Source of the DNA: a virus | DNA length: 39,602 nucleotides | Virus record (IMG/VR): IMGVR_UViG_3300035670_000556 | Coordinates: 1-39,602 of that record | Strand: one strand, 5' to 3' | Shown here: in pieces, positions 6,682 to 25,961 of the stretch | How the letters are laid out: each line of letters opens with the position of its first letter | How positions within the stretch are numbered: position 1 is the first letter of the stretch | The notes under the pieces: generated by a model | Told to the model about the DNA's origin: nothing | The model's database searches: none | The model's input: the letters and a program-made list of their open reading frames with translations, nothing else | Made by a program: the position numbers and the translations under genes

Positions 6682-6692
6682 GTTTCAATCGC

Positions 6693-6959
6693 ATGGCTGG
6701 ACATTCAATAAGCCATCAGGACGGAAGCAGAACATTCATCGACTACCACGACGCATCTGGTTTCTGCGTTGTGAATGGGCGATTTTGGCGATGGTATTTC
6801 CACGAATTTGGCGGACCGACGTTCCTGCGCGCCGATGGACAACCGCGCAAAAACCAATTCCCTACGTCAAAAGCTGTTTGGGAAGGATTTGAGAAATGGC
6901 ACAAGCGATACGAACGGTCGAAGCGAAAAGCTAACGGTTCAGAAAGCCTCCATAGTTAG
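6693..6959 (+). CDS. small hypothetical protein
   Basis: A protein of 88 residues starting MAGHSISHQDGSRTF. It has an aromatic-rich middle (GFCVVNGRFWRWYFHEFGGP) and a lysine/arginine-rich C-terminal tail (EKWHKRYERSKRKAN). It may bind nucleic acid, but no family is recognised. The ORF is open further upstream over the previous gene; ATG 6693 is the first start after that gene ends. Its TAG stop is directly followed by the GTG start of the next gene. Confidence 0.55.
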   Translation: MAGHSISHQDGSRTFIDYHDASGFCVVNGRFWRWYFHEFGGPTFLRADGQPRKNQFPTSKAVWEGFEKWHKRYERSKRKANGSESLHS

Positions 6960-7223
6960 GTGGCTTTCAATCCATTCGTCGGAAAATCGCAGACATGGCT
7001 AGAGACTGAGCTTGCAAAGGCTCAGTCTGATTTGGCTTCCGGTGCCTCCACAATCAGTGGTGGCGAGGGAACGGTGCAATTTGGCAAGATGTTGCACCAG
7101 TCGCCGCAGGTTCGGATTGAACAGCTTTTACGGGCGCTGTATGCGCTGGACCCGGACACCTATCCGCTGTCCTCAATCACCCGTGCGACCCGTAGCGTTG
7201 GGGTCATCTCTAGGAGTTACTGA
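6960..7223 (+). CDS. head-tail joining protein (gpW-like)
   Basis: A protein of 87 residues beginning with GTG. The layout (an N-terminal helix WLETELAKAQSDLASG, a short beta hairpin EGTVQFGKM, a second helix VRIEQLLRALYALDP) fits the gpW fold, which caps the portal and prepares it for the tail. It sits between large terminase and portal, just as gpW does in lambda, although small accessory genes intervene. Its stop overlaps the portal start (TGATG). Confidence 0.7.
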   Translation: MAFNPFVGKSQTWLETELAKAQSDLASGASTISGGEGTVQFGKMLHQSPQVRIEQLLRALYALDPDTYPLSSITRATRSVGVISRSY

Positions 7224-8701
7224 TGGCCCAACGTCCTTACAAATTCGTGCGGCGTGGTTTGCTTTACGTCCCCAGCGTTTCGGGCTTTACCAAGGGGGCC
7301 AGGGCTTCACAGCAGCGCGAGCAAACGCCCAACTATTCCATCGATTCTGGCGGACTGCTGAACGCAACGGACCGGACTCGGCTGATGGCGATTGGGCGGG
7401 ACTTGGCGCACAATTGCAGCCCGGTTAGGGGAACGCTGAACGAGATCGCCAAGCTAGCGGCTGCCGTGGTGATACCTCAATTTGAGGGTGCGGACCGGGC
7501 ATGGGGAGAGGCTGCGGAGCTTTACCTTTACGATTCCGGCAAGTTCTTGGACGTTCGAGGCTGGCCGTTTGACACGGACGCTTTCAACAGGATTTTGGTC
7601 CTGTCCGTGCTTCGTGACGGCGAAGAATTTGTTCTGCTTACCGAGGACGAAAACGGTGACCCGAAAATCCAAGTAATTCCGGCGCATAGGGTTGGAAGTC
7701 GCACCGAAAAGGAAGTCAAGAAAGGAGTCTTCGCTGGCTATCGGATTCAGGATGGCGTGATCCTCGACGAATATGGCCGGGCAATCGGATATCGTGTCTT
7801 AGGTGATACCGCGTCTGAGGACCGGGACTATTCATCGGACGACCTGTTCCCCATCTTTGACCCGGACTTTGCCGATCAATCCCGTGGATTCTCTGCGCTT
7901 GGAGCTTCTGTAATCGATTGGCAAGACTACCAAGAAACGCGGCGCTTTGAGTTAATGGCTCAGAAAAAACTGGCCAGCGTTGCGGTATTGGAGAGCAATG
8001 AACTGGGGGAAATGCCTCCGTCCAATACCGTTGGCATCCCCGGCATTGGAATTGCCGACGACGGTTCGGATGAGCGGCCTGCAATATTTGGAGAGGAAAT
8101 GCTTGGAGGAGAGACTCGCTACTTCCGCGCTGGGTCTGGTTCCAAGTGGGAAATTCCGCCGTCTGATAGACCTTCCGCGAATCAGCAGGCGTTTTCCGCT
8201 GACATCGTCCGGCAGGCAATTCACGGAATTGGCTGGTCATCCGACTTCTCGTTAGACCCGACAAAGGCCGGCGGTGCGTCCATGCGGACCGTGATCGAGA
8301 AGTGCAACCGCCAGCTTGACCATCTAAGGGAACGCATCCTTTCTCCGGTTCGGAAGCGGATTGACGCTTGGCGCATAGCGAAGGCGATCAAAAACGGAAG
8401 GCTGGCTCCAAACGAAGATTGGTGGCGATGGTCTTATCAGTTTGCAGCCAGGTTGACGGCGGACGAAAAGTATTCCTCCGACGTTGACCTTCAGGAAATG
8501 CACGCTGGCGTTTCGAGCTTCCAAAAGGTGTGCGCCAAACGTGGCGATTGGTGGCAGGAAGTGATTGACCAGAAGATTGCAGAGGAACGCTACATCCAGC
8601 AGCGGGCAGCCGAAGCAGGGATTGATCCGAACGCAATCAGACTACTGACCCCTAACGGAAACTCTAGCCAAGCGCCGACGCCAACGGACCAAAACCAATG
8701 A
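7223..8701 (+). CDS. portal protein (lambda gpB family)
   Basis: The dodecameric portal of 492 residues, forming the DNA channel at the capsid vertex. It matches the lambda B-type portal family: the N-terminal RTRLMAIGRDLAHNCSPVRG, the central EEFVLLTEDENGDPKIQVIPAHRV, the HIFD-like region (DLFPIFDPDFADQSRGFSALG) and QQAFSADIVRQAIHGIGW. A GGAG ribosome binding site lies upstream. It overlaps gpW upstream and the protease downstream (ATGA). The length agrees with the family (about 500). Confidence 0.93.
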   Translation: MAQRPYKFVRRGLLYVPSVSGFTKGARASQQREQTPNYSIDSGGLLNATDRTRLMAIGRDLAHNCSPVRGTLNEIAKLAAAVVIPQFEGADRAWGEAAELYLYDSGKFLDVRGWPFDTDAFNRILVLSVLRDGEEFVLLTEDENGDPKIQVIPAHRVGSRTEKEVKKGVFAGYRIQDGVILDEYGRAIGYRVLGDTASEDRDYSSDDLFPIFDPDFADQSRGFSALGASVIDWQDYQETRRFELMAQKKLASVAVLESNELGEMPPSNTVGIPGIGIADDGSDERPAIFGEEMLGGETRYFRAGSGSKWEIPPSDRPSANQQAFSADIVRQAIHGIGWSSDFSLDPTKAGGASMRTVIEKCNRQLDHLRERILSPVRKRIDAWRIAKAIKNGRLAPNEDWWRWSYQFAARLTADEKYSSDVDLQEMHAGVSSFQKVCAKRGDWWQEVIDQKIAEERYIQQRAAEAGIDPNAIRLLTPNGNSSQAPTPTDQNQ

Positions 8702-9510
8702 CACACACTCATCTAATTCACTCCGTTTTCTCGTCGCCTTGGCTGATTCTTCCAACCGCGCACCACTCCATCGCGGAGTTGGTAAAGTCCCGCGTGTTAG
8801 GCGCACAGGGCGAAAGAACAGGCTCCGACGTGTGCGGCAATGCCGTGGAACTTGAGCAAATGGAAGTCATTGACGGGGTTGCGCGAATTCCAATTTCCGG
8901 AGTTATCGGGCGCAAGTTGTCCGCGATGGAAAAGGGGAGCGGGGCCGTTGACGTTGCCGACATTGAGGGCGACATCAAACTTGCCGAGTCGGATCCACGA
9001 GTGAATGCCATCGTTCTTTGCATTGATTCACCGGGCGGAATGGTCAACGGGACTCCGGAGCTTGCATCCGTAATTGAGCAGGCTGATAAGCCAATTTATG
9101 CGTGGGTGCCAGGTGGCGCTTACTCTGCGGCATATTGGTTGGCATGTTCAACCGACGGAATCTTTGCGGCTCCATCTGCGGGCGTTGGTTCCATTGGAGT
9201 TTACATCCCACACTACGACCTGAGCGGCATGTATGAGTCACAGGGCATCAAAGCTGAGCCAATTACGTCCGGAAAATACAAGGCGGCAGGTTTCCCGGGC
9301 ACTTCGTTAACCGAAGCGCAACGCGAGGATTTGCAGGGCTACGTTGACCGCTTGGCGGCTCAGTTTCAGGCGCACGTAACCGCTTCCCGTGGAGAAATCT
9401 CACCGGAACTTATGCAGGGACAGACGTTCCAATCGGACGTTGCGCTAGAACATGGGCTAGTGGACGGAATATACCGGTCACTTGACGAGATGATCGCAGC
9501 CGTCGTGTAA
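8698..9510 (+). CDS. head maturation protease (S49/SppA family, gpC-like)
   Basis: A 270-residue serine protease of the SppA/S49 type, which processes capsid proteins during prohead assembly. The block VLCIDSPGGMVNG is the oxyanion-type motif, GGAYSAAYWLA carries the nucleophile Ser143, and ITSGKYKAAG carries the probable general base Lys193. The later IYRSLDEMIAAVV ends the catalytic domain. Lambda gpC has a C-terminal scaffold extension; here that function seems to be in the separate coiled-coil gene downstream. Confidence 0.92.
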   Translation: MTHTHLIHSVFSSPWLILPTAHHSIAELVKSRVLGAQGERTGSDVCGNAVELEQMEVIDGVARIPISGVIGRKLSAMEKGSGAVDVADIEGDIKLAESDPRVNAIVLCIDSPGGMVNGTPELASVIEQADKPIYAWVPGGAYSAAYWLACSTDGIFAAPSAGVGSIGVYIPHYDLSGMYESQGIKAEPITSGKYKAAGFPGTSLTEAQREDLQGYVDRLAAQFQAHVTASRGEISPELMQGQTFQSDVALEHGLVDGIYRSLDEMIAAVV

Positions 9511-9534
9511 CTGTTCACTTCTTCTAATTGATAG

Positions 9535-9936
9535 ATGAACATTCCGTCCGCCATCGCCGAGTTGCGGGGCTTGCTGGTGAGCAACAAGGAAAAGGTTGAC
9601 CAAATCCTTGCGTTGCAAACCGAAAACAAGGCTGCCGCTGATAGAATTTCCGAGCTTGAAGCCGCGCTGTCCGTTGCAACCTCGGAGCGTGATGTTGCAG
9701 TGGCCAAAATGAAGGAGCTTGAATCATCGGCCGAGTCCGTTTCTGCCGAGCTTGCCAAGATTTCCGCAGAATTTGAGCAGTTGAAGTCGTCTCCGTCGGC
9801 GCAGGCTCTTGAAATTGTCGCCAAGGCTGGCGTACCGGCAGGACAGGCTCCCAAGGCTGAGGTCAAAACCGAAAAAACTCTCAAAGGACTAGACCGCGTT
9901 CGCGCTGCTTTTGAGGCTAAGCAAAAGAAACTTTAA
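9535..9936 (+). CDS. coiled-coil capsid assembly (scaffold-like) protein
   Basis: A protein of 133 residues, mostly a long coiled coil (about residues 10-90, repeats of E/K/A/L), then a proline- and lysine-containing linker and a basic C-terminus (GLDRVRAAFEAKQKK). Size, charge and the place between protease and capsid genes suggest a scaffold or scaffold-helper. The 24 bases before the start contain no clear Shine-Dalgarno sequence. Role inferred from position and composition only. Confidence 0.6.
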   Translation: MNIPSAIAELRGLLVSNKEKVDQILALQTENKAAADRISELEAALSVATSERDVAVAKMKELESSAESVSAELAKISAEFEQLKSSPSAQALEIVAKAGVPAGQAPKAEVKTEKTLKGLDRVRAAFEAKQKKL

Positions 9937-9949
9937 CACACACTAACAC

Positions 9950-10897
9950 ATGGCACAGGCTAATCTGCTGGACATTGCAAAGCTCAACGGCTCCGACGCG
10001 GTTGTCGGGTTGATTGAGGAAAACATGTCGGTTGCACCGGAACTTTCGGTGTTTCCGGCTCGAACGATTCGAGGCACTTCTTACAAGATTGCTGTCCGCG
10101 ATTCGTATCCTGGAGTTGGATTCCGGAACGCTAACGAGGGAACGACTTACACCAAGTCAACCTTCTCAAACAAGACGATTGAGGCTTACATTTTGGCCGC
10201 AAACGTCCGCGCTGACGTAGCCGTTGCAAATGCCTACGAGGACGGCCCTGACGCTTGGAAGGCAATTGAGGCTTCCGGCGTTATGCGTCAGGCGATGATT
10301 GAAATTGGTTCCCAGATTTTCTACGGGACTTCTGTTGATTCCAAGGGATTCCCGGGTCTTGAAGCGATTCACACCGCATACGCAAGCGGTCTGGTTGTGG
10401 ACGCTGGCGGCACAACTGCTGGCACCGGCTCTAGCGTTTACGGCGTGAAATTCGGCCCGCAAGACGTTCAGTTGATCTTCGGAAACGGCACCGCTTTTGA
10501 GCTTGGTGATTGGTTCCAACAGATGGTCAACGATGGAACTGCCGGCCAAGACTACCTTGCGTATGTCGCCGCTCTGACCTCGTGGGTTGGATTGCAGGTT
10601 GGGTCCAAATACAGCGTTAGCCGACTCAAGGATGCGACTGCGGATTCCACCAAGGGTGTAACCGATGCGAAGTTGGCTGAGCTTTTGAGCCTGCACCCGG
10701 TCGGCCATCGTCCGGACTACTGGTTCATGAATCGGCGTTCCGCTTACCAGTTGCAGTCCTCGCGGTCATCCACCGTGAACGGCACCGGTTCCAAGAGCGC
10801 AACTGGCGCTGAGGTTTGGGCACCGCTCCCGACCGAGAGCAACGGAATTCCGATCATCGTAACCGATAGCATCGGTTCCACTGAAACCCTGAGCTAA
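9950..10897 (+). CDS. major capsid protein (HK97-fold)
   Basis: A protein of 315 residues, the probable main capsid subunit. The segment ELSVFPARTIRGTSYKIAVR resembles the N-arm/E-loop region of small HK97-fold capsid proteins, and the C-terminal GIPIIVTDSIGSTE looks like the final beta strand of the family. It sits directly after protease and scaffold-like genes and before a small decoration candidate. The leader is CACACACTAACAC with no Shine-Dalgarno, a feature shared with the next gene. Confidence 0.85.
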   Translation: MAQANLLDIAKLNGSDAVVGLIEENMSVAPELSVFPARTIRGTSYKIAVRDSYPGVGFRNANEGTTYTKSTFSNKTIEAYILAANVRADVAVANAYEDGPDAWKAIEASGVMRQAMIEIGSQIFYGTSVDSKGFPGLEAIHTAYASGLVVDAGGTTAGTGSSVYGVKFGPQDVQLIFGNGTAFELGDWFQQMVNDGTAGQDYLAYVAALTSWVGLQVGSKYSVSRLKDATADSTKGVTDAKLAELLSLHPVGHRPDYWFMNRRSAYQLQSSRSSTVNGTGSKSATGAEVWAPLPTESNGIPIIVTDSIGSTETLS

Positions 10898-10905
10898 CAC
10901 ACAAT

Positions 10906-11316
10906 ATGGCTAACGAATTCGCAAGAAACGTCCGCGATGCGGACCTTATCATCACCCGGGCTCTGACGGCTGCGGATGGAACCGTTACTTCCTCGGACTT
11001 TGATCTTGAGGCGGTTGCTGGTGGTCTGTCTCTGGAAAACGTCGAGCTTGTCATTGAGATTCCATCGCTGACCGGTTCCGAGCTAGCCAGCGCGGACACC
11101 CTCACGCTTACTGTGCAAGGCGGCTCTAGTGCCACCCCAAGCACGTCGCTCAACATGGTTCACGTCACCACGGGCACGGGCAGCACGATTGCGGCGCAGG
11201 AAGTTCGCTTCCGGCTTCCGTCTAGCGTTGGCCGTTACGTCAACGTCAAGGCGGTAACGGCCGGAACCACTGGCGATATGTCCGCCAAGGATTTGACGAT
11301 TTCGCTGCGGTTCTAA
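10906..11316 (+). CDS. capsid decoration or head-stabilising protein candidate
   Basis: A protein of 136 residues, predicted beta-rich with alternating hydrophobic and Thr/Ser residues (DTLTLTVQGGSSA, KDLTISLRF). Position after the major capsid gene and before the first strong terminator suggests a cement or decoration protein. It resembles Bbp16-like cement proteins in general layout, but identity is not certain. The leader CACACAAT is similar to that of the capsid gene, which may set matched expression. Confidence 0.55.
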   Translation: MANEFARNVRDADLIITRALTAADGTVTSSDFDLEAVAGGLSLENVELVIEIPSLTGSELASADTLTLTVQGGSSATPSTSLNMVHVTTGTGSTIAAQEVRFRLPSSVGRYVNVKAVTAGTTGDMSAKDLTISLRF

Positions 11317-11340
11317 CAAACTCTCGCGTTGGTCACACTA

Positions 11341-11383
11341 CTGCCGGTCGGTATTCATGCGCCGGCCGGCAGTTTTTGTTTTT
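11341..11383 (+). terminator. strong intrinsic terminator after head genes
   Basis: An 11-bp stem (11341-11351 with 11362-11372, one G-U pair), a 10-base loop and a T-rich tract (TTTTTGTTTTT, 11373-11383). It closes the head module transcript. The T tract ends directly at the ATG of the next gene, so expression of the downstream cassette would need readthrough, antitermination or a promoter not seen here. Confidence 0.88.
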
Positions 11384-11920
11384 ATGTTTAGACTTCTGAC
11401 ACTTCTTTTGCCTTTTGCGCTGCTGGCTGCTGACCCGTCCCGGGTGAATCTCAACCTCGGCAGCGGCTCCAATGACGGAACCGGAGACGGGTTGCGGACT
11501 GCGTTCACGAAGATCAACACGAACGTAATCAACCTTTGGTCTCAGGTCTTCACGAACAACGCGGCATTGATTGCCGGAAAGCTGGACGCGACCAACGGGA
11601 CTGCGGTTGCACTTTCTGGAAGCCTTACCAACGCAACGGCCAACGGCATAGCGTTAACCGTGGCTGGAATCTCAGCAGTCGCAGCCACCACGGCCGGCGA
11701 CCTTCAAGACCTAGCGAGCAATGGCATATTACAATCAACCGCTCCGGCGAGAATCCGAGTGCTGAGGGATAATGACGGCCGGGTTTTGGGCTCTGGCAGG
11801 TGGTATTCCAAGAATCTGACGGACACGCGAACCAGTGACGGAGTGACGATCGTCCTTCCGATTGATATTCCATCCGATGCGACCGCAGGCCGCTGGGTGC
11901 TGGAGGGTTACGAACCATGA
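11384..11920 (+). CDS. signal-peptide-bearing tail fibre-like protein
   Basis: A protein of 178 residues. Residues 1-16 (MFRLLTLLLPFALLAA) are a Sec-type signal peptide with likely cleavage after AA. Residues 27-48 contain GSNDGTGDGLRTAFTKIN, a motif common in phage tail fibre and tailspike N-termini. The remainder is Ala/Thr/Gly-rich and beta-like. An ATG at 11357 lies inside the terminator stem, so ATG 11384 is preferred, although it has no ribosome binding site. First of four consecutive genes with signal peptides. ATGA overlap with the next gene. Confidence 0.65.
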   Translation: MFRLLTLLLPFALLAADPSRVNLNLGSGSNDGTGDGLRTAFTKINTNVINLWSQVFTNNAALIAGKLDATNGTAVALSGSLTNATANGIALTVAGISAVAATTAGDLQDLASNGILQSTAPARIRVLRDNDGRVLGSGRWYSKNLTDTRTSDGVTIVLPIDIPSDATAGRWVLEGYEP

Positions 11921-14340
11921 AGCGCCTTTTCCTTTTCCTAATCCTGCCATTCCTGATGTCGGCGCAGGAGGTGGTCCAAGTGGACACCGTGGCCGACCTG
12001 GTGGCGCTCAACCCAAAGCTCGCCGGCCGTATTGATGGCGATGGCGTGTTGCAGTCCACCGTCTTTGTGAAGCGGTATTCCACCAGCGTTGCGGTGGGCG
12101 TTGGGGCCGGCACCTATGTTTGGGCTCCGTCGTATTCCGGGACTACCAACGCTTACGGGGGTGCTCTGGCAGTCACTGGTGGCGCTTGGGTGCTGGATGC
12201 GTCGGCGGGAATTTCCCCTCTTCAATTCGGAGCGGTCGGCGATGGCGAAACGGATGACTCGGCTGCGCTCAATGCGATGTTTGCCTCCGGGTTCAAGACG
12301 TTCTCACTGGCCGGCAAAACCTACGGCGTAAACAACGCCTATCAGGCCACCAATGCCAGCGGGTATTATTGGACCAACGCGGTGCTGGCCGAGGTGTCGG
12401 GCGCCCGGATAACTGGACCTGGAACCATCCGATCGCTGGCGGAAACCAATGTCGGCATCGTGACGATGCAACTGCAAGGCGACAACAACGTGGTCGAGGG
12501 CGTGACCTTTGACGGGAATTTCACATCCTACGGCGAGTCCGACACGTCTGGCATCGGGTTGCGGGTCTACGGCTCCGGCAACCGGATCATCGGCAACACG
12601 TTCACCAATACGGGATACATCGGACTTCAGGTAGAATCGGCGCTTTCCGTTCCCGGAACAGACTTCCCGACAAACACCGTAACGCTGGGAGAGACCGTGA
12701 TTGCTGGAAACGTGTTCTACAATTCGCACACGACGGCAATCCTGACCAAGCCCGGAGGTCTGCGACGCACCGCAATCTCGGACAACATCATCACCGGCTA
12801 TGCGCTCGCCGGAATGAAACTGGACGCAGAGCCACCCTCGGATGACGACGCATCGGGCGAGCTGACCATCAGCGGAAACATCATTTCCGACGGCGACACT
12901 GCTCTCGGATATTCCACGTCAACCGGAGCGCAGGGAGGCATCACCATTGAGGAGGGGATGCGAAACATTGTCATCAGCGGCAACATGATTCGAGGCGGAA
13001 CTAACACGACTGGAGGCGCAGGTTTTCGGGGCATCTACCTGTCTGCTGGCCAGTCTGACAAAGACGTGTCCAACGTGCTGATCGCGGACAATAACATCAG
13101 CAACATTGACGGCGAAGGCATCCTGCTCAGGGTAGAAGATGCGGGTCGGTTTGATAACGTGACCATTTCCGGCGGCAGCATCACCTCAGTCGGCGGAGTG
13201 GGCATCACCACGTCAACGCTGGGCACCACCAAGAGTTTGATTAACCGGCTGGTTATCAATGGGGCTGTGGTCCGCGACGCGCCTTACGGAATCCAGTTGA
13301 CCAGCGTGATTCAGTCGGCGGACGTAAGCGCACAACTCCGCGACATTGGTGCCAGCGGAATCGTGGTTTCCTCCCTAACCAATTGTGTGATCCACGACAC
13401 GTCCGTAATGAAATACGGCACCACCAACGCATCGGCCCGAGGTATTCAGTTTGTGACGTGCAACGGTCTAACGCTGCGGGACACGACCGTTGAGGGCACG
13501 ACGGTCGGACTGTATGGGGTTGAGTTGGTCGCCTCCCATTCAATGCAGTTGCACAACGTCCAGAGCAGTTTCAACCGGTCTCACGGAATTCTGGTCACGT
13601 CTTCGTCCACCAACGTCTTTTTGCAGAACATTTTTGGCCGCAACAACGGCTACGGCGGCAGCGGTTATTTGCTAAACCTGAGCAGCGGCGACGACATCAC
13701 GGTCCGTGGAATCTACGGAGTCGCGGACGACGCCTCGGCTACGATGCCCTACGTCCTGGTGGCCGCGACAGGCGTGGATGTTGATATTGCGGGCATCGGA
13801 GGAACTGGATGGACCACGGCGCTTTACACGTTCACCGGATCGGCATCCCGAATTGTGGTGCGTGACTTGGCTGGATACGGAAGCCCTGAATCGGTGGTCA
13901 CTGCGTGGCCGGGTGCGACTTATCGGGACATGGACGGAGGGAGCGGCACGCTTTACGTCAAAGCCACTGGCACCGGAAACACTGGTTGGGAGTCGCTGCT
14001 GCAATCGTCTACGGCATCTGCGCTCAGCTACTCCGGTGGAACCAACATCACCGTCACGGTCCCGACTGCGGGCGCACCGCATGTGGTGAACACGCTGGCG
14101 ACCACGGCGGATACTTACGTTACGTTCAGCGGGTCCAACGCCAAGGCCACGGGTGAACTGATCCTGAGCGTGAGCGGTGGCCCGCATGACCTGAGCTTCG
14201 CGGGCAACGTGCTGAAGCCGGCGAGCACAACCATTCCGCTGAGCCTCACGGACGGGACGTGGAATCTGGAGTGGAAGAGCGTGACCCTGAGCGGAACCAA
14301 CTGGTTCATGCTTAGCGTCCTCGAATACGACACGCCATGA
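11917..14340 (+). CDS. beta-helix tailspike-like / pectate-lyase-fold protein with signal peptide
   Basis: A protein of 807 residues. The N-terminus (MKRLFLFLILPFLMSA then QE) is a signal peptide. Residues 104-120 carry FGAVGDGETDDSAALNA, the hallmark of the Pectate_lyase_3 family, followed by many right-handed beta-helix coils (repeated V.I.GN.I patterns to about residue 680) and a beta-rich C-terminal domain. Such proteins bind or cleave polysaccharides at the host surface. The unusual points are the signal peptide and the location between head and tail genes. A family enzyme activity is possible, but no catalytic residues can be identified. Confidence 0.8.
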   Translation: MKRLFLFLILPFLMSAQEVVQVDTVADLVALNPKLAGRIDGDGVLQSTVFVKRYSTSVAVGVGAGTYVWAPSYSGTTNAYGGALAVTGGAWVLDASAGISPLQFGAVGDGETDDSAALNAMFASGFKTFSLAGKTYGVNNAYQATNASGYYWTNAVLAEVSGARITGPGTIRSLAETNVGIVTMQLQGDNNVVEGVTFDGNFTSYGESDTSGIGLRVYGSGNRIIGNTFTNTGYIGLQVESALSVPGTDFPTNTVTLGETVIAGNVFYNSHTTAILTKPGGLRRTAISDNIITGYALAGMKLDAEPPSDDDASGELTISGNIISDGDTALGYSTSTGAQGGITIEEGMRNIVISGNMIRGGTNTTGGAGFRGIYLSAGQSDKDVSNVLIADNNISNIDGEGILLRVEDAGRFDNVTISGGSITSVGGVGITTSTLGTTKSLINRLVINGAVVRDAPYGIQLTSVIQSADVSAQLRDIGASGIVVSSLTNCVIHDTSVMKYGTTNASARGIQFVTCNGLTLRDTTVEGTTVGLYGVELVASHSMQLHNVQSSFNRSHGILVTSSSTNVFLQNIFGRNNGYGGSGYLLNLSSGDDITVRGIYGVADDASATMPYVLVAATGVDVDIAGIGGTGWTTALYTFTGSASRIVVRDLAGYGSPESVVTAWPGATYRDMDGGSGTLYVKATGTGNTGWESLLQSSTASALSYSGGTNITVTVPTAGAPHVVNTLATTADTYVTFSGSNAKATGELILSVSGGPHDLSFAGNVLKPASTTIPLSLTDGTWNLEWKSVTLSGTNWFMLSVLEYDTP

Positions 14341-15095
14341 AGACTCTCATTCTGACATTGCTGGTGTGCGTTCAGGCGTGTGGTGCTGGATTCTTCGCGG
14401 CACAGCAGGCGGTGATTGGTGGAAGCGAAACGCCCGCAGAATTTAATCCGTCAGACTACGGGACGGTGCTCGCGTGGTTTTCGTTGCGAAAGGAAACCGG
14501 CTTTTCGGACGGCGACAGCATTGGAACGCTGACGGATTTCAGCTCGCAGGGTAAAGACCTGTCACAAGGGACTACGGCAGCCAAGCCGCTGTTCAAGACT
14601 TCAATCGTCAACGGGCACCCCGCAATGCTAATGGACGGCGTGGACGATTTCCTGCTGGCGTCGTCATCGGTTGGCACGGACTACAAGACCGTGTTTGTGG
14701 TGGCCTACTATTCCGGGGCAACCTTTGCAAATTACGGCGGGCTTCTCAGCTCTGGGGTTGCCAATGAGAACCAGGTCCCGCTTCAGGGCAACGTCGGGAC
14801 AACCTATTTTTACAATGCTCTAAAGACAACCACTTACTGGAAAGACGGAGTCAGCTATCCAGAGACCGGAATGACGGGTCCGATGAACGCATGGGCGGTC
14901 ATGCGGCACCAAGCGTCCTCCGGCTGGCAGGCGGCGACCACCATTCAGATCGGGAAAGACCGGACGTTTGCGGGCCGGTTTTGGTCTGGATACGTAACAG
15001 AGGTCATCTATTATCAGGAAGAGCTTTCAACAGAGGATTGTGAAGCGGTGGAGGATGCGCTTGGCGGTCTGTTTAACATTACTATCACTCACTAA
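14337..15095 (+). CDS. LamG/concanavalin-like domain protein with signal peptide
   Basis: A protein of 252 residues. The N-terminus MKTLILTLLVCVQACGAG is a signal peptide; VQAC is close to a lipobox, so a lipoprotein is possible. Residues about 38-245 look like a LamG/concanavalin A-like carbohydrate-binding fold: AWFSLRKETGFSDGDSI, NGHPAMLMDGVDDFL, the strand-rich centre, and GYVTEVIYYQEELSTEDCEAVE, the usual final motif of this fold in bacteria. It overlaps the tailspike-like gene by ATGA and is probably co-expressed. Confidence 0.75.
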   Translation: MKTLILTLLVCVQACGAGFFAAQQAVIGGSETPAEFNPSDYGTVLAWFSLRKETGFSDGDSIGTLTDFSSQGKDLSQGTTAAKPLFKTSIVNGHPAMLMDGVDDFLLASSSVGTDYKTVFVVAYYSGATFANYGGLLSSGVANENQVPLQGNVGTTYFYNALKTTTYWKDGVSYPETGMTGPMNAWAVMRHQASSGWQAATTIQIGKDRTFAGRFWSGYVTEVIYYQEELSTEDCEAVEDALGGLFNITITH

Positions 15096-15097
15096 GC

Positions 15098-15463
15098 ATG
15101 AAACTCATTCTGGCGAACTTTCTGGCGTTTTCAGCGATGGCACAGACCAGCACTGTGGTCATCGTTCCGGCGGCGCTGAGGGATGCGGCCAACACGCTAG
15201 CCAAGGCGGAGTTTGATCCTGCTGGAGGGGAATTTACGTTCACGGCCGCGCTGACAACGCCGCCGTCGACTAACGTTACGCACTACTGGTGCGCCGCAAG
15301 GTTCACGGCCACCAATCGCGCCAAGCTGAACGTGCTCACCAACACGCCACCATTCGCGGGCAACGTAATGGTCTTAGACTATTCGCCGACCGCAATGCCG
15401 TCCGCTCCGTTCCTTTTCCTAGCCACAAACGGACTCGCTGTTTACTCTCCTGACATCTTCTAA
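15098..15463 (+). CDS. small exported beta-rich protein
   Basis: A protein of 121 residues beginning with a signal peptide (MKLILANFLAFSAMA then QT). The mature part (VIVPAALRDAANTLAKAEFD, then Thr/Pro-rich strands) shows no recognised domain and has a single cysteine. It lies two bases after the LamG-like gene and completes the four-gene exported cassette. Function unknown; a partner of the preceding surface proteins is a reasonable guess. Confidence 0.6.
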   Translation: MKLILANFLAFSAMAQTSTVVIVPAALRDAANTLAKAEFDPAGGEFTFTAALTTPPSTNVTHYWCAARFTATNRAKLNVLTNTPPFAGNVMVLDYSPTAMPSAPFLFLATNGLAVYSPDIF

Positions 15464-15469
15464 CTATGG

Positions 15470-15808
15470 ATGGCACCAGTAAGAACAGAAACACGGCTTG
15501 CAGAACTAGAGCTAAAATGCGAGCGAGTGGAAGTTTTGGTTGGAGTCTTCAAGCGTGAATTTCAAATCTCAGACGAGAAGATGGAAGCACTCAAAAGCGA
15601 TGTTGCCGTGGTCAAGCTTGCGTTGTTTGGTGACCCGTCGGATTCAAACAAGCGCCCGGGGCTCATTTCCGAGGTGAGAAGGTTGGAAATGAAACAAGAC
15701 CAAGCGAACGAAATACTGTCAGACATCCGGCGCGACATCCGATACGTAGCAATGGCCGTCGTCGGGGCTGTGATCGCTGGCATTTTGAAACTTGTTGTGA
15801 TGCATTAA
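15470..15808 (+). CDS. XhlA-like coiled coil plus C-terminal membrane anchor
   Basis: A protein of 112 residues: a coiled-coil body (LAELELKCERVEVLVG ... VRRLEMKQDQANEIL) and one C-terminal transmembrane helix (about 90-110, YVAMAVVGAVIAGILKLVV). This architecture is that of XhlA/holin-associated small phage proteins. It probably sits in the inner membrane with the coil in the cytoplasm. A second ATG at 15466 is in another frame. Lysis or anchoring role inferred from the architecture and neighbours. Confidence 0.6.
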   Translation: MAPVRTETRLAELELKCERVEVLVGVFKREFQISDEKMEALKSDVAVVKLALFGDPSDSNKRPGLISEVRRLEMKQDQANEILSDIRRDIRYVAMAVVGAVIAGILKLVVMH

Positions 15809-15809
15809 T

Positions 15810-16124
15810 ATGAACGAAGAAACACTGTTGGCCGGGCTTATGGATACTTGGTCCGCGAAACACGGCTGGCTAGCTGCTGCGCTGACGTGGATTGGAACTG
15901 CCCGCGTTGCCTTCAAGCTGGTGTCAGGAAAACTGGAGGAGGCAATTCACGCCTTCGTTGAGTTCTCAATCAGCACCAAAGACGCAGACGCTGTGGACAG
16001 GCTCAACGGAATATTCGCCAGTCGCACCTATCGATTGCTTGCGTTTTTGACAGACTACATCGCCAGCGTGAAACTTCCTCTGACTGCGAGAAACACCAAC
16101 ACCGTCAACATTCAAAAGCCATGA
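15810..16124 (+). CDS. small hypothetical protein of the lysis-like region
   Basis: A protein of 104 residues with two moderately hydrophobic stretches (GWLAAALTWIGTARVAFKLV and a later TYRLLAFLTDYIASV). It could be membrane-associated, but neither stretch is a clear transmembrane helix. It lies between the XhlA-like and lipoprotein-like genes and overlaps the latter by ATGA. A holin role is possible but not shown. Confidence 0.5.
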   Translation: MNEETLLAGLMDTWSAKHGWLAAALTWIGTARVAFKLVSGKLEEAIHAFVEFSISTKDADAVDRLNGIFASRTYRLLAFLTDYIASVKLPLTARNTNTVNIQKP

Positions 16125-16504
16125 ACAAATTCCGAATCACTTTTGAAGACTGGATTGCACCGCTGGCAATCTGGCTGCTAATCGCACTGTGCGCCTGTCA
16201 GATTGGTTGCGCTACAAAGCAACTGCCGACACTCGCAGCCGCTCAAGACGTAATCTATGGGCTCAAAAAGTCTTGGACAGCTCACGTTAAATCCGAGTAT
16301 CAGAAAATCAACAAGCTGCCGGCCGAGGATCAAATTCCATTGCGCGACAAGCTGAGAGCGAAAAACGAAAAGGTCATCGCCATCGCCAACAAGGTAGACG
16401 CGATTTGGTGGAACGCATGGAACGCGGCGAAAGCGGACAGCAAATCAAAGCCAAGCAAAGAACTTGTTTCCGCAATGGCTGAACTCAAACTTGCAACACA
16501 ATGA
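16121..16504 (+). CDS. lipoprotein-like protein (possible outer spanin)
   Basis: A protein of 127 residues. Residues 12-26 are a hydrophobic signal segment (IAPLAIWLLIALCAC) with LCAC as a possible lipobox at residues 23-26. The mature part is helical and charged (KNEKVIAIANKVDAIWWNAWNAAK). Lipid anchoring plus a short helical periplasmic part is compatible with an o-spanin or a superinfection-related lipoprotein. Stop and next start overlap (ATGA). Confidence 0.55.
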   Translation: MNKFRITFEDWIAPLAIWLLIALCACQIGCATKQLPTLAAAQDVIYGLKKSWTAHVKSEYQKINKLPAEDQIPLRDKLRAKNEKVIAIANKVDAIWWNAWNAAKADSKSKPSKELVSAMAELKLATQ

Positions 16505-16686
16505 ATCCCGCGCTTGTTATGGCATTGGTTGAAATCGGGAAGGCTGCTGTTCCTGAGTTCATCGCCGCCCTTAAAGCACTCCGCACGAGTGGCACTCTTA
16601 CGGATGCCCAGATTGCCGAGACCGAAGCGAAGGCGAGCAAGAGTCTTGAGCAAATCCAGCAGGAGGAAGGGGTTGACCGGCTGTGA
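16501..16686 (+). CDS. small helical protein
   Basis: A protein of 61 residues, all helical (MNPALVMALVEIGKAAVPEF, then SKSLEQIQQEE). It has no clear transmembrane segment. It lies between the lipoprotein-like gene and the tail-connector gene, overlapping the former by ATGA and the latter by GTGA. Function unknown; it could belong to the lysis cluster. Confidence 0.5.
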   Translation: MNPALVMALVEIGKAAVPEFIAALKALRTSGTLTDAQIAETEAKASKSLEQIQQEEGVDRL

Positions 16687-17057
16687 GTTGGACCAGTCAC
16701 ATCGCGGGTGTTCTGGACGAGATTCGGAACCTGACGCAATCGGGCAACGTGTTCACATGGAAGACTGCCGAGATTCCCTGCACGGCCAGCTTTGCGCGTC
16801 GCGGGTCGCTGCCGACTGAGGGCGGGTTTGACCTTGAAGCTGCGCTGACGTTGACGGTGCAACTGGCCGAATTTATTTCGTCGGATACAGATGTGATAAC
16901 CGCAGACTCTGAAATCTTCCTGAGCGACAACGACCTTCCGACGCCAGCGATTGGAAAGACGATAACTTACAAGGGGAAACGGTATCGGATTTATCGAACG
17001 GAACTGGCACCCAGCGGAACCTTTGCAAACCTGCTTTGCGAAGACATCAACCGATGA
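16683..17057 (+). CDS. head-tail connector (gpFII-like) candidate
   Basis: A protein of 124 residues beginning with GTG in a GTGA overlap. The C-terminal half GKTITYKGKRYRIYRTELAPSGTFANLLCEDINR has the layout of lambda gpFII-type tail-attachment proteins (a small beta barrel after a helical N-part). It is followed by Z-, U- and V-like genes, which supports the assignment. Sequence likeness itself is weak. Confidence 0.6.
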   Translation: MSWTSHIAGVLDEIRNLTQSGNVFTWKTAEIPCTASFARRGSLPTEGGFDLEAALTLTVQLAEFISSDTDVITADSEIFLSDNDLPTPAIGKTITYKGKRYRIYRTELAPSGTFANLLCEDINR

Positions 17058-17809
17058 CCCCGCGCATCCAGATTGATAGCCGAGAGTTTCAAGCCGCTGT
17101 TAAACAGGCTTTGCTTTCGACCAGCAAAGAACTTCCGAAGGCGATCACAAGCCGGATGTTTTATCTAGCCGTGCGCCTGTTTGCGATCATGCCGCCGCGC
17201 AACATCCAAGCGGCAAAGCAGCACATCCGGAACTATCTGAACGCGGGCGTGTCTAGCACGCAATCGGTCCGCAAGTCCGGGAAGAAGGTGGCCAACTCAA
17301 GGCAACTGAAGCGGGTTCATTTGCTTGTTCAGGGCAAACGGCGAAGCCAAGGGTTGAGTGGTCTTTATGGTAAGGAGATGAAAGACGCGGCCGGCAAGTT
17401 CCGCCGTCGCGCCATCGGTTCCGTGGGCTATCTCAAGAGCGGAATTGTCAGGGCGTTACGCCAGCTTAACGGGCACTTCTCGCAATTCGGGAAGAAGGAT
17501 TCAAAGACAAAGGCGGAGGTTTCACCCAACGCGGCACTTGCTAAAATCGCGGCGGAGTATGGCTCAAGCGGCAACGTGGGAATCCACAAAGGCAGCAAGG
17601 GGAAGGGGATTCCAGCAAAGCCAGGATCAAACCCGACGGCGACGATGGCGCTTTCGATGGGCATCCGTGACAACCAATTAAGCCGCGTTTCCAGCCGCGC
17701 AAATGGTTCCATGTCGCAAGCCATGAACGATGAACGGGCTTCCATCGTCCAATACCTAGCGCGGAAAATGCAGGACATCGCAGACCAACACAATGCCGTC
17801 CGGAAATAA
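17054..17809 (+). CDS. minor tail protein (gpZ / HK97 gp10-like)
   Basis: A protein of 251 residues, basic and helical, with REFQAAVKQALLSTSKELPKA near the N-terminus, typical of tail-completion proteins that cap the tail. Its place between the connector candidate and tail terminator candidate fits lambda gpZ. The last 17 bases overlap the next gene in another frame. ATG 17054 is chosen because it forms ATGA with the previous stop; the frame is open upstream to 17036. Confidence 0.6.
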   Translation: MTPRIQIDSREFQAAVKQALLSTSKELPKAITSRMFYLAVRLFAIMPPRNIQAAKQHIRNYLNAGVSSTQSVRKSGKKVANSRQLKRVHLLVQGKRRSQGLSGLYGKEMKDAAGKFRRRAIGSVGYLKSGIVRALRQLNGHFSQFGKKDSKTKAEVSPNAALAKIAAEYGSSGNVGIHKGSKGKGIPAKPGSNPTATMALSMGIRDNQLSRVSSRANGSMSQAMNDERASIVQYLARKMQDIADQHNAVRK

Positions 17810-18266
17810 CATCCTTCAGAAGTGCCAGCAGGCCGCGCGCGATTACATCATTGCGGCAGGCTTAGACTGGATCACGTCCGCGTCAATCGTCAGCGGGCTT
17901 TCCCGTGGCCCTGCCGATGAGGATTTTGACGTGGAGGTTTCCTCGACGGACCTGCCGGCAATCGTTTGCAAGTGTTCCAATGCCGCGATGATCCACGAAG
18001 CCAATTCCGGAAACTGGAATTGCTCGCTGGAAATCCTTGTCAGGATGCACGCTCAGGACACGACTGAGGACACCGCGCTTGACCGATTTTCCGAGGTTGC
18101 GGACCTGTTCATGGACTCGGGGACGGCGGAAGCTGGGCTGAGCGAATACGACGGGTTTACCGCCTTCGCCATCCGCGTAACTGGTCAGAATTACACTATA
18201 AGTGGGAAGGCGTGGGATTTGACCCTTACCTGCGAAGTGGACTGCTGCGGATCAAACATCACTTAA
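17793..18266 (+). CDS. tail terminator (gpU-like) candidate
   Basis: A protein of 157 residues with the alpha/beta pattern of tail terminator proteins (NWNCSLEILVRMHAQDTTED...FSEVADLFMDSG... then FAIRVTGQNYTISGKAWDLTLTCEVDC). These ring proteins stop tail-tube growth and join tail to head. Position immediately before the tail tube gene supports the role. Confidence 0.65.
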   Translation: MPSGNNILQKCQQAARDYIIAAGLDWITSASIVSGLSRGPADEDFDVEVSSTDLPAIVCKCSNAAMIHEANSGNWNCSLEILVRMHAQDTTEDTALDRFSEVADLFMDSGTAEAGLSEYDGFTAFAIRVTGQNYTISGKAWDLTLTCEVDCCGSNIT

Positions 18267-18269
18267 GAT

Positions 18270-18806
18270 ATGCCAACTGGAACGATTCAATACGGAAACG
18301 CAAAGCACTTCCTCAAGGGTAGCGCAAATGCAATCGCACTGACACCGCAAGACGGGGCTGGAAATGCATACACCAGCGCCGTCTTTGTGTCTCCAATTGT
18401 GACAGATATTTCCGTCTCAGTTGGCGGCAACAAGGTGGACTTCATGAACTATCAGGGGATTAACGATTCCTTTGAGGTAAATGGAGAATACATCGAAGTC
18501 ACCTATACGCTTCTTCCGTCAGGTTCTACCGCTGCAAATGCATTGCTTTCCGCTTCTCAGTATCGGATTGGAACTCCGTTTGCCGTAACCAATGCGCCTG
18601 TTCTAAAACTTGCCGGTCATGGTCTAGAGGCCACAGTTGCCGGCGGTTCTGCCGATGCGTTTTTGAAAGACTGCCTCAACAGCACTTACTTCCTTCAATC
18701 GATCAACACGACCATGACGCTTGAAGGTGCGACCACTGGCACGATTACGCTTCGCCGCCCAATCCTTGCAAGCATTGTTGCGACCGCCGCTGTCCTCCCT
18801 GCATGA
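18270..18806 (+). CDS. major tail tube protein
   Basis: A protein of 178 residues, beta-rich, with MPTGTIQYGNAKHF at the start, then VTDISVSVGGNKVDF and TYTLLPSG patterns usual in tail tube subunits. It follows the tail terminator candidate and precedes the chaperone and tape measure genes, the standard place for the tail tube. It overlaps the chaperone gene by ATGA. Confidence 0.75.
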   Translation: MPTGTIQYGNAKHFLKGSANAIALTPQDGAGNAYTSAVFVSPIVTDISVSVGGNKVDFMNYQGINDSFEVNGEYIEVTYTLLPSGSTAANALLSASQYRIGTPFAVTNAPVLKLAGHGLEATVAGGSADAFLKDCLNSTYFLQSINTTMTLEGATTGTITLRRPILASIVATAAVLPA

Positions 18807-19360
18807 TCGGATGGGAGCACAGCGACCCCAAAGCGCAGCCAGTGTTCTACCGGCTCAAGATGATGCCGGTGACGGTGGGGCACTTGGCTTTGCTCTATGA
18901 GTTAGGGGTTGACGTGCTGGACGGAATGACGGAGCAGGATGAACGCCTTGCTGCTTTTGTTTGTTCGGGGAACCACATAATGCGCTCCAGAGACGTTAGG
19001 CGGTTTTGGATTAGGCCGTTCTTTCGTCTCTGGGGTAGCGTGTGTGGTAGGCATGGGATCATTACGGAGCCGAATTTTTGGCCGTGGTTTGCGAAGCAAT
19101 TATCGGGACCAATCACAAAGCGAAAGTCCGGGTCAATTGGTGGTGAGATTGCAGCACCGTTGCACGTTCACCTGATCGCGTGTTGCATGGGGATGTTAGG
19201 AATGACTAAAGCCGAAGCCATGAATCTAACCGTGAAGGAAGCAAAGCAGCTGATTTGCGCGCTTGGGGAGGCCCGTGGTGAGATCGATTCATGGACCCGG
19301 GCGGACGAGCGCAGGCGCGAGTTGAGCGTCAGCCTAGGACTATTGGAGGCACGGAACTAA
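18803..19360 (+). CDS. tail assembly chaperone candidate
   Basis: A protein of 185 residues. The opening with YRLKMMPVTVGHLALLYELG and LAAFVCSGNH resembles a family of single-frame proteins found between tube and tape measure genes in related phages. Lambda makes a G-GT frameshift product here; no separate T frame of useful length is visible, so no frameshift is proposed. Its TAA stop overlaps the tape measure start (TAATG). Confidence 0.6.
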   Translation: MIGWEHSDPKAQPVFYRLKMMPVTVGHLALLYELGVDVLDGMTEQDERLAAFVCSGNHIMRSRDVRRFWIRPFFRLWGSVCGRHGIITEPNFWPWFAKQLSGPITKRKSGSIGGEIAAPLHVHLIACCMGMLGMTKAEAMNLTVKEAKQLICALGEARGEIDSWTRADERRRELSVSLGLLEARN

Positions 19361-20454
19361 TGGCTCTGTTTTCTCTACTTGGGAAGCTGAGTCTGGATTC
19401 TACGGGGTTCAATTCCGGACTCAAGACTGCCGAAACAAAGGCAACCTCCTTTGCGTCGCAGATTGGACCAAAGCTGGCTGCTGCCTTTTCTGCGGCTGCG
19501 GTCGTGTCGTTTGCAAAGGCTACCTATTCAGCGGTGGATAATATCCGCAACCTTGCCGATGCCTATGACGTAACGACGGAAAAGATTCAGCTAATGCAAG
19601 AGGCTGCCGCCCGTAACGGCGTGCAAGCTGAGCAAATGCTTGAAACAACCGTCAGAATTGGTGAGGCAAGAAAGCGTGCGCTAGATGGTGACATGAAAGC
19701 CATTCAGGCGTTCTCCCGCATGGGAATTTCGCTGGATGATCTCAACGACAAGAACAAGGACAACGCTGACCTGATTTCGCAAGTCGCCAAGACTTCATCC
19801 GAGACCAACCGCAACTTCCAGCATCAGGCCGACCTTGTGACGCTGATAGGTGGCGGAAGCGTGAAATTGATTGGAGCACTCCGAGAGCTTGAAACGCTAG
19901 ACATCAACATCATCAAGGACAAAGACCTAGAGGCGATTGATCAGCTAGGAGACAAGGCGGAGGAGGCAATACGGGCAGCGGAGCGCGGCGCAAAGACCGT
20001 CGTCGGAACCGTGTTCCGCAGTGGCCAAATGTATTTCGAGGCAATCGCACAGTTTCAAACGCAATTTTGGACTGAGATTGGAAAAGGCGGAACGCAGGCG
20101 GGGTTGCGTGCATTTCGTGCTGGCATTGAGGGCATCAAATCAGTGTTTCAGGAAACACAGGTTGACGTTCCCGCTAAACGCGATTACCCGACGCAAGACA
20201 CGGCCGCGAACGCGATGCCCGCAGGCTACACCCGCGAAGGTCGTGCAACCGGAGAACCCTTTGACGTTCCTGTGGCAGTTCGGAAGCGCGAAAGGATGCA
20301 ACTGCCATCCACCGGAGACCTTGCCCGCATTGGTGGCTTGTCATTCGGCGCCGACTACAACCTGCGCCTTCTCCGTAGCATCGATTCCCAAGTCAGCTAT
20401 CTTTCCAAGATCGCAGACGCAACCAAGACAACGGCTGACGTGATTTCCCAATAA
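19360..20454 (+). CDS. tail tape measure protein (short)
   Basis: A protein of 364 residues. The N-terminus LGKLSLDSTGFNSGLKTAETKATSF matches the start of tape measure proteins, followed by a hydrophobic AAFSAAAVVSFAKATYSAV and a long helical region, then a disordered proline-rich part and a helical C-terminus. The start has GGAGG at 19345-19349. It is much shorter than most siphophage tape measures (over 700), suggesting a tail of about 50-60 nm if the 1.5 angstrom per residue rule holds. Confidence 0.75.
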   Translation: MALFSLLGKLSLDSTGFNSGLKTAETKATSFASQIGPKLAAAFSAAAVVSFAKATYSAVDNIRNLADAYDVTTEKIQLMQEAAARNGVQAEQMLETTVRIGEARKRALDGDMKAIQAFSRMGISLDDLNDKNKDNADLISQVAKTSSETNRNFQHQADLVTLIGGGSVKLIGALRELETLDINIIKDKDLEAIDQLGDKAEEAIRAAERGAKTVVGTVFRSGQMYFEAIAQFQTQFWTEIGKGGTQAGLRAFRAGIEGIKSVFQETQVDVPAKRDYPTQDTAANAMPAGYTREGRATGEPFDVPVAVRKRERMQLPSTGDLARIGGLSFGADYNLRLLRSIDSQVSYLSKIADATKTTADVISQ

Positions 20455-20457
20455 CCA

Positions 20458-21243
20458 ATGCCCATTTACGGAGACAGCACTTTCGCCAGCGCAGGGATCA
20501 CACTCCTTCGCGCTGGTCGCATTTGGGACGGGCGTTCTACGTCTTGGGAGGAGCTTTACTTTGGGACATCGGCCGGCATCACAGCGAAATACAACGCGGC
20601 AATCGCGGCTGGCGCTAAGGCTAGGATCTCCAATGACAACGGGACGCAGACTCTCACGCTTACCTATGCGCTAGACCCCAATGACCTGACCGGAGAAGTC
20701 CCTGAGGATGAATGGTCAGACGATACGGAAACCGCTGAGGTTGACTTGTTTGCATGGGCTCCGGCCGTAAATGAGGCCGCGCAATTCGTCGCGCAATCCA
20801 CGACGGGGACGGAGGCTGCCTATCGGAAGGAAATCAAAGACGCGGTTGATAACGGGGAGACGTATCCGCTCGGCTCTGGCTTTCCGGTCGGCCAATACGT
20901 CTACAAGTTGCTGGCCCGTGGCGTTACCTCTATCCCGTTCAATCGTCCGGTCCTTTCCCGCAACCGGACCTTTTCCACGGCATACGAAAACCGCAACCAG
21001 ATGCAAGCCGTCCAAACCGTTTGGACAACCTCCGCGCTCATTTCCGCTTTTGATATTCCGTCCGCAGTCCAAGCTAGGCTTCCGGAAAACCCGGGCGTGA
21101 ATGACACGCCAGAAGGAACCGCTTGGGGATGGAAGCTGACTGTGGACCGGGCAAGCTACAACATCGCACTTGGAAAGGTGACGGAACAGAAAACGTGGGT
21201 CTTTGCTGCGTGGGTGACCAGTTTCTTTAACTTCGTTCAGTAA
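20458..21243 (+). CDS. minor tail protein (distal tail candidate)
   Basis: A protein of 261 residues starting MPIYGDSTFASAGI. The composition is beta-rich with a Cys-free, soluble sequence. Its place after the tape measure fits a distal tail protein or hub component. No domain is recognised with certainty. It ends in a TAATG overlap with the next small gene. Confidence 0.55.
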   Translation: MPIYGDSTFASAGITLLRAGRIWDGRSTSWEELYFGTSAGITAKYNAAIAAGAKARISNDNGTQTLTLTYALDPNDLTGEVPEDEWSDDTETAEVDLFAWAPAVNEAAQFVAQSTTGTEAAYRKEIKDAVDNGETYPLGSGFPVGQYVYKLLARGVTSIPFNRPVLSRNRTFSTAYENRNQMQAVQTVWTTSALISAFDIPSAVQARLPENPGVNDTPEGTAWGWKLTVDRASYNIALGKVTEQKTWVFAAWVTSFFNFVQ

Positions 21244-21449
21244 TGCCTAAGCTACCGCAAAAGCTGAAACCTGTTGGATACAAGTCCGAGGAACGGGAAG
21301 CGATCAATCAGATTATCGACTTCCTTCAAGCCTCGCGCATTGTTTCCGGCAAGGGCATTGTGATCAAGGAAGGGCCGGGAGGCATTACGGTTGCAGCCGA
21401 CCCGAACTACCAGAACGAAGGAGGAAACGCGGAACCGGTTTGGCTTTAA
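21243..21449 (+). CDS. small tail-region protein
   Basis: A protein of 68 residues, with an N-terminal lysine/proline segment, helix (REAINQIIDFLQASRIV) and a beta hairpin (GKGIVIKEGPGGITVA). That hairpin resembles the first trimerising strands of tail fibre proteins, so it may be a small fibre-associated adaptor. No firm assignment. Confidence 0.5.
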   Translation: MPKLPQKLKPVGYKSEEREAINQIIDFLQASRIVSGKGIVIKEGPGGITVAADPNYQNEGGNAEPVWL

Positions 21450-21461
21450 CACTTAGAAATT

Positions 21462-21839
21462 ATGGGAACACTCGCTCAATCCATCAAACACACTGCAACA
21501 CTGGACGACTCGGAAGTTTTTACGATGACGCTGTCCACCAAGACCGTCACGCTTACGACCGGCGCTTTAGCGCATAAAACGACGCAGATTGTCGGCACGA
21601 CTTCCGAAGCGTTGAGCGTGGGAGATTGCGACACTTCCGCCCGCTACTTTGTAGAGCTTCGCAATGCAGACGACACCAACGAGGTCTACGTCAACCTTTC
21701 AACGTCAACCGCTGGCAGTGACTTCTTGCAATTGGAGCCGGGCGAGCTTGCTGCGTTTGCCGTCAAAGGTGGAGTCAATGTCTTCCTAAAGGCCGATACT
21801 GCAGCTTGCAACGTTGAAGTCGTTGTTAATGAGGCGTAA
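21462..21839 (+). CDS. small beta-rich tail-region protein
   Basis: A protein of 125 residues of alternating Thr/Val-rich strands (FTMTLSTKTVTLTTGAL; VYVNLSTSTAGSDFL; VNVFLKADTAACNVEVVV), looking like an Ig- or jelly-roll-like virion protein. The leader is AACACTTAGAAATT with no Shine-Dalgarno. It sits between the distal tail candidate and the large tip/fibre protein, so it is probably a virion component. Confidence 0.55.
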   Translation: MGTLAQSIKHTATLDDSEVFTMTLSTKTVTLTTGALAHKTTQIVGTTSEALSVGDCDTSARYFVELRNADDTNEVYVNLSTSTAGSDFLQLEPGELAAFAVKGGVNVFLKADTAACNVEVVVNEA

Positions 21840-21842
21840 TGC

Positions 21843-25481: not shown

Positions 25482-25710
25482 CTTTCCCATCCAAGGCCGG
25501 TTCCGCGTCGGCTCCGCAAAGCCACGGGAAGTCCGCGCAAAAGCTAAGCAAAAGCCAAAGTTTCCACGGGAGGAAGTCTGCCGCGCTTGCGAGTTCTTCA
25601 ACGCTCCTCAGTCGAAATGCGCTCACCCGAACACGAAAACGTGGCGCACTTGTTGGTCATCTCCGCGTCGCGTAACCCCTTGGCGTTGGCTGGTTTGCCC
25701 GGTTGCCTAA
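25474..25710 (+). CDS. small basic cysteine-rich protein
   Basis: A protein of 78 residues; the likely start is GTG 25474, with TTG 25459 as an alternative. The N-part is rich in Lys/Arg/Pro, then EEVCRACEFFNAPQSKCAHP and WRTC...WLVCPVA give a CxxC and further Cys residues, probably a zinc site. Similar small proteins follow the tip gene in related phages. It overlaps the tip gene by eight bases. Function unknown. Confidence 0.55.
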   Translation: MISFPIQGRFRVGSAKPREVRAKAKQKPKFPREEVCRACEFFNAPQSKCAHPNTKTWRTCWSSPRRVTPWRWLVCPVA

Positions 25711-25729
25711 AACTTTCTGCGATTTTCCG

Positions 25730-25758
25730 TTGACGGGAAACATGGCTAGGCGTAGACA
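25730..25758 (+). promoter_or_regulatory. promoter candidate for recombination region
   Basis: TTGACG at 25730-25735 and TAGACA at 25753-25758 are separated by 17 bases. The -35 agrees with sigma70 at five of six positions; the -10 is weak (three of six). The core is within a small dyad (TTTCC ... GGAAA). It lies in the only gap between the tail module and the next gene set, about 6 bases before the following start, so a leaderless or near-leaderless transcript would be implied. Confidence 0.4.
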
Positions 25759-25764
25759 TTGGCC

Positions 25765-25944: not shown

Positions 25945-25961
25945 CCCCGACACGCGCCCCG
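25941..25961 (+). repeat. 21-bp direct repeat, copy 1
   Basis: Twenty-one bases identical to 28345-28365. Both copies contain the TGA stop of the upstream gene followed by CCCCGACACGCGCCCCG. Sequence further downstream (TGCCAAA then ACC) is also shared after an unequal spacer. The first copy lacks the 3' arm that makes a hairpin in the second copy. Role unknown; a 3' or 5' untranslated regulatory element is possible. Confidence 0.85.

Follow-up and report, generated by a model that had tools for sequence, protein, structure and literature searches.

The structural proteins of tailed phages are generally expected to be made without signal peptides, and the locus studied here raises the question of why four adjacent genes in the structural region of a phage should all begin with apparent Sec leaders. 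The window, i.e. the whole stretch of DNA that was analyzed, is a 39.6-kb viral contig encoding a terminase, a portal, a head protease, a phrog_212-type major capsid protein (MCP) and a tape measure. By MCP, the closest named phage is Akkermansia phage Chantilly (35%); by portal, it is verrucophage P8625 (31%). Single-sequence searches of viral contigs with the MCP and with the products of genes 11384 and 14337 (genes are named by their first coordinate) gave no matches; the MCP search succeeded once a two-sequence alignment served as the query. Of 387 genomes sampled from the phylum to which a Verrucomicrobiaceae MAG belongs, 16 contained MCP relatives. Since these relatives occur in that phylum and Chantilly and P8625 are the nearest named phages, we infer that the host is probably a member of the Verrucomicrobiota.

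The four ORFs (Table 1) follow one another directly: neighbouring genes overlap or are separated by no more than 2 bases. Leaders were scored with a cleavage-site matrix derived from 32 E. coli signal peptides (SPs), together with hydrophobicity; the training peptides, scored with the matrix that they had served to build, ranged from 9.2 to 18.5 on a scale that is therefore only indicative. All four leaders carry Lys/Arg near the start and a core with a Kyte-Doolittle value of about 2.5-3.3. The Sec SPase I-type features (basic n-region, hydrophobic h-region, small residues at -3/-1) place 11384 and 15098 inside the training range, although in 15098 the most hydrophobic 9-mer falls just past the signal. 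The 11917 leader (MKRLFLFLILPFLMSA, cut before QEVV) scores 4.1, below that range. The 14337 leader (MKTLILTLLVCVQACGAGFFAAQQ) has a strong hydrophobic core, a cleavage score of 1.1 and an ambiguous site; this product could remain membrane-anchored. The idea that the 14337 family carries a lipoprotein leader found no support, as the relatives have no proper lipobox. The combined cut was passed by three of about 60 likely genes in the window, all among these four, and 14337 failed it on its cleavage score. The proposal of the initial annotation that all four products start with Sec signal peptides is thus borne out, with E. coli-like leaders in 11384 and 15098, a lower-scoring one in 11917 and an unclear site in 14337.

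Table 1. Coordinates of the features of the cassette and its borders in the window.
Coordinates	Strand	Feature	Details
11340..11383	+	Terminator-like hairpin and T-tract	Between capsid genes and cassette; T-tract abuts ATG 11384
11384..11920	+	Predicted SP, T4 gp9/10-type virion-anchor motif NDGTGDGLRTAFTKIN and hinge GKLDATNGTAVALSGSLTN	178 aa
11384..11428	+	Predicted signal peptide MFRLLTLLLPFALLA, followed by ADPS	Score 10.1 (training range 9.2-18.5)
11917..14340	+	Predicted SP and right-handed beta-helix tail-spike-like protein	807 aa; PF13229, NosD
14337..15095	+	Hydrophobic Sec-type leader and LamG/ConA-like protein	252 aa; relatives in eight cassette loci
15098..15463	+	Small SP protein	121 aa; most conserved of the exported cassette members
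15098..15142	+	Predicted signal peptide MKLILANFLAFSAMA, followed by QTST	Score 10.3
15470..15808	+	Holin-like; charged N-terminal part, C-terminal TM	112 aa; 31% to L395 6200-6496
15810..16124	+	Cassette protein	104 aa; 85-87% identical in other cassette contigs, including SU10-type capsid phages
16121..16504	+	Lipoprotein/spanin-like; TM segment with lipobox-like QIGC	26-28% to L395 and L404
16501..16686	+	Small protein	61 aa; similar-looking gene of ~60 aa at the same place in L404-L407 (by size, position and eye)

A known type of virion anchor, the gp9/10-type motif, stands behind the leader in 11384 and in a second phage contig, L333, with modest family scores (for 11384, phrog_677 at E 3e-5, and PF07880 at E 0.21, below the cut-off). 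From its sequence, the 11384 product looks like a short fibre or adaptor. Distal beta-helix or lectin-type domains were found in the next two products, in agreement with the folds guessed in the initial annotation: 11917 matches the beta-helix family PF13229 (E 1e-16), with an endosialidase N-terminal extension below the cut-off, and may be a polysaccharide depolymerase, and 14337 matches phrog_10356 ('virion structural protein', E 6e-16), its LamG-like assignment coming without any Pfam match. Pfam and PHROG profile searches detected no lysin (muralytic) domain in the four products. AlphaFold models of 15098 (pLDDT 59) and 14337 (pLDDT 52) were of low confidence. Elsewhere in the window, the 1212-aa product of 21843-25481, with no Pfam or PHROG match and 49.6% identity to L080 14693-18343, is possibly a tail tip.

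The hairpin upstream of the cassette (11340-11373, 13 pairs) is the strongest within 6900-26700. An alternative in-frame ATG at 11357 falls within the loop of this terminator-like structure and was rejected for that reason in favour of 11384, before which no Shine-Dalgarno sequence is visible. The SP fibre of L333 is also preceded by a hairpin, unrelated to that of the window, and then CTTTTG; hairpins in front of both suggest separate transcription. As had been remarked, the location is unusual: the cassette lies 3' of the capsid decoration gene 10906 and 5' of gene 16683, a weak Phage_attach match (E 4e-4, below the cut-off), with lysis-like genes (15470-16504) between the four SP genes and 16683. 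At the position of 15470, the corresponding genes of L404 and L405 have weak matches to the holin family phrog_1296. The identity of the 15810 product to its counterparts in SU10-capsid phages exceeds that of other shared genes. A tblastn comparison of the 16501 product with L395 was not significant.

The occurrence of the cassette in related phages, a point raised in the initial annotation, was then found to extend across capsid families: an SP spike, an SP LamG protein, an SP small protein and lysis-like genes recur together. L333 (the same record as L111) is 42%, 44% and 37% identical to the window in portal, protease and terminase, respectively, and its capsid belongs to phrog_283, unlike that of the window. 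Its gene order resembles that of the window: protease and capsid genes are followed by a terminator-like hairpin, an SP fibre of 1134 aa that bears the anchor motif, a small SP protein, one spanin/holin-like and one lipoprotein-like gene, and then the tail genes; the small protein is 28% identical to 15098, a level at which homology is insecure. In G020 (L395), which has the same MCP family as the window and carries the cassette at a different genomic place, an SP spike (1008 aa) is followed by an SP LamG-like protein (30% to 14337), an SP small protein (75% over the mature part of 15098), a holin-like gene and then a spanin-like gene (28% to 16121). A scan for the small protein gave ten loci, some from already-seen contigs, including the SU10_MCP capsid phages L405, L410 and L412; in L403, a 68-kb contig with such a locus, capsid genes were not recognised. 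The cassette or its SP spikes thus accompany capsids of the phrog_212, SU10_MCP and phrog_283 families. Because the 15810 product is 85-87% identical in SU10-capsid phages, exchange between these and the window lineage appears to have been recent. Searches for the 15098-type small protein in 384 genomes of the class and, at the DNA level, in named phages gave no match.

Further SP-bearing tail-like proteins were identified in more distant relatives (L067, L070, L075/L076, L066 and the prophage L380); in the last of these, which comes from a genome of the Verrucomicrobiota phylum, an SP fibre lies beside a phrog_212 capsid region. In a Verrucomicrobiia MAG, a 152-aa product with a strong leader (14.3) is encoded just 3' of the decoration gene (L084 11898-12353); its only family match is a very weak one to a minor capsid family. 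A generic anchor peptide search in the 387 phylum genomes gave mostly SMC-like false positives, and a lipoprotein-like match (L335/L387) was set aside for want of a recognisable phage context. The L387 product (6687-8585, reverse strand), lipoprotein-like with a degenerate anchor motif, DHTGDPLKTNFDKVN, and no clear prophage around it, is possibly a domesticated spike.

Comparison of the spikes revealed a modular layout, with a group-specific N-terminal segment bearing its own leader, a shared hinge (NKLDTTNGTAVNLTGSLTN; in 11384, GKLDATNGTAVALSGSLTN) and a variable distal domain. A census based on the hinge pattern, in which leaders were ignored, recovered 15 contigs, the fifteenth with a truncated gene start; leaders were present in all 14 with a readable one. 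Because near copies and already-seen contigs account for several of the 14, the census represents about four independent kinds of N-terminus; two further kinds come from the window and the QQQVNNF type. The anchors comprise the gp9/10 type (window, L333), TFIRSLP (L395, L404, L409), QQQVNNF (L405, L410, L412), ADVLTPG (L403), RTPRVVDS (L414) and QGTRIKDLP (L419), and the distal domains are beta-helix, pectate-lyase type, beta-propeller or weakly GDSL-like. L414 also encodes, 5' of its SP spike, an adaptor-like protein of ~160 aa without a leader (2356-2835); the truncated L427 contains a domain resembling this adaptor, apparently with a hydrophobic leader.

Leaders are rare on spikes from unselected phage controls. 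When viral contigs were scanned with a DNA pattern for the gp9/10-type motif, leaders being ignored, at least 123 motif-bearing frames were obtained, and among the matches listed only one of 123 (L111) has a Sec leader; in nearly all of them the motif lies about 13 residues from Met. After the predicted cut, the corresponding distance is 15 residues in the window and 12 in L111/L333. A beta-helix spike pattern gave at least 118 genes with closed 5' ends in viral contigs, and the SP rule fired on at most one of 118 among the matches listed, which looks like a false positive, its N-terminus resembling ordinary fibre N-termini. In mixed phage contigs, a loose form of the rule selected 9 of the 757 ORFs that reach 200 aa, a background of about 1%. 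The usual state of a spike is synthesis without an export signal, and the cassette spikes depart from it. One study has taken the absence of signal peptides as support for the phage origin of variable proteins (PMC6199706).

The leaders also behave as functional elements would. Between the window and four relatives in the small-protein family, only 2-5 of 13 leader residues are identical (15-38%) compared with 81-85 of 106 in the mature part (~78%), and each leader is nevertheless hydrophobic with a basic start; most relatives of 15098 retain the Ala-Gln junction. Leader character kept without leader sequence is what is expected of a functional signal peptide. The trait has clear limits. Close MCP relatives (67-72% identity, genomes read) have large fibre-like genes without SPs, no signal peptides were predicted by SignalP 4 in P8625 (PMC4642752), and no SP fibre was seen in Chantilly or in the Akkermansia-type prophages examined. 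On these grounds the trait tracks the cassette, or its host range, and not the capsid lineage; and because close capsid relatives and P8625, one of the two closest named phages, manage without SP fibres, export would be dispensable for this type of phage generally.

We consider it somewhat probable that the cassette encodes receptor-binding proteins which leave the cytoplasm by Sec and become part of the virion in the periplasm or at lysis. It would produce an anchor/adaptor, a beta-helix spike, a LamG-like lectin and a small partner, each synthesised with a Sec signal peptide, sent to the periplasm, relieved of its leader and folded there, with the remaining virion being assembled in the cytoplasm. 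The neighbouring lysis genes would open the membranes and bring spikes and virions together, and the spike could dock because signal removal would leave its anchor near the ordinary N-terminus. A receptor-binding role is proposed because of the anchor-like domains behind the leaders, the hinge-and-tip modularity and the lack of another recognisable spike, and export because of the leaders and the lysis linkage; leaders and anchors combined suggest docking outside the cytoplasm. At the sequence level, support comes from the leaders, their rarity elsewhere, the varied anchors, the association with at least three capsid families, the spike-like modularity and the linkage to lysis-like genes, from which we infer export, cleavage and docking. 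Among the roles offered in the initial annotation, release or attachment at lysis fits best, as the cassette is coupled to lysis-like genes, whereas surface remodelling lost ground, the comparison favouring receptor-binding modularity.

Movement of the cassette between virion types would also suit exported proteins that never join the particle, namely adhesins or depolymerases secreted before or at lysis that act on the surface of the host or its neighbours, with progeny escape or a superinfection block as the proposed outcomes. Genuine-looking leaders, enzyme-like distal domains and a cassette common to several capsid types are all compatible with such a role. We regard it as rather unlikely, since anchor-like domains that vary by phage group are retained behind the leaders and would be pointless on a free enzyme, and nor could another spike-like gene be identified in the window, although the unassigned 21843 (1212 aa) could be a tail tip. 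More doubtful still is that uncleaved leaders tether the spikes at the inner membrane until lysis, in the manner of SAR endolysins. The 14337 family, with no clear SPase I site, and the holin/spanin-like genes adjoining the cassette would fit a tether, but the scores of 11384 and 15098 fall inside the span of the training peptides, which are cleaved, and the Ala-Gln junction persists in most 15098 relatives while the leader sequence varies. Accidental hydrophobic N-termini or wrong start codons, to which the scarcity of clear upstream ribosome-binding sites might point, are very improbable given four consecutive leaders in the window, their recurrence in other lineages against a background of about 1%, and the conservation of leader character without that of sequence.

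The proposed exported receptor-binding proteins resemble several known systems. Caudoviricetes gp9/10-anchored spikes and fibres (phrog_677, phrog_4250, phrog_2234, PF13229/PF12708) share the anchor, the beta-helix and a swappable distal domain; ordinary members start at the anchor (~13 residues from Met to motif) without a Sec leader, whereas all readable members of the hinge census have one. Mosaic adhesive trimeric (MAT) fibres of Bdellovibrio are bacterial fibre proteins with signal peptides, and are similar as phage-fibre-like adhesins behind such a peptide (PMC10769870); by their description they are bacterium-encoded, have a domain of ~130 aa after the SP and serve predation, whereas the cassette lies in a phage structural region and carries phage anchors. 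Exported phage endolysins, e.g. Lys44 of fOg44, and SAR endolysins offer a precedent for Sec export of phage proteins before lysis with holin-linked activation (PMC6116005), but their cargo is muralytic and that of the cassette spike- or lectin-like. A search of largely open-access literature turned up no description of Sec leaders as a trait shared by a group of phage spikes.

We tentatively propose, as a real possibility, that some tailed phages, probably those of Verrucomicrobiota, complete their virions outside the cytoplasm, and that a mobile cassette couples exported spikes and lysis genes across unrelated capsid types. Because a leader is present on every cassette spike despite changes of anchor and distal domain, the site of final tail assembly is directly testable. 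For annotation, SP spike genes could pass for secreted enzymes of the host, and the cassette may bear on how phages enter poorly cultured Verrucomicrobiota hosts.
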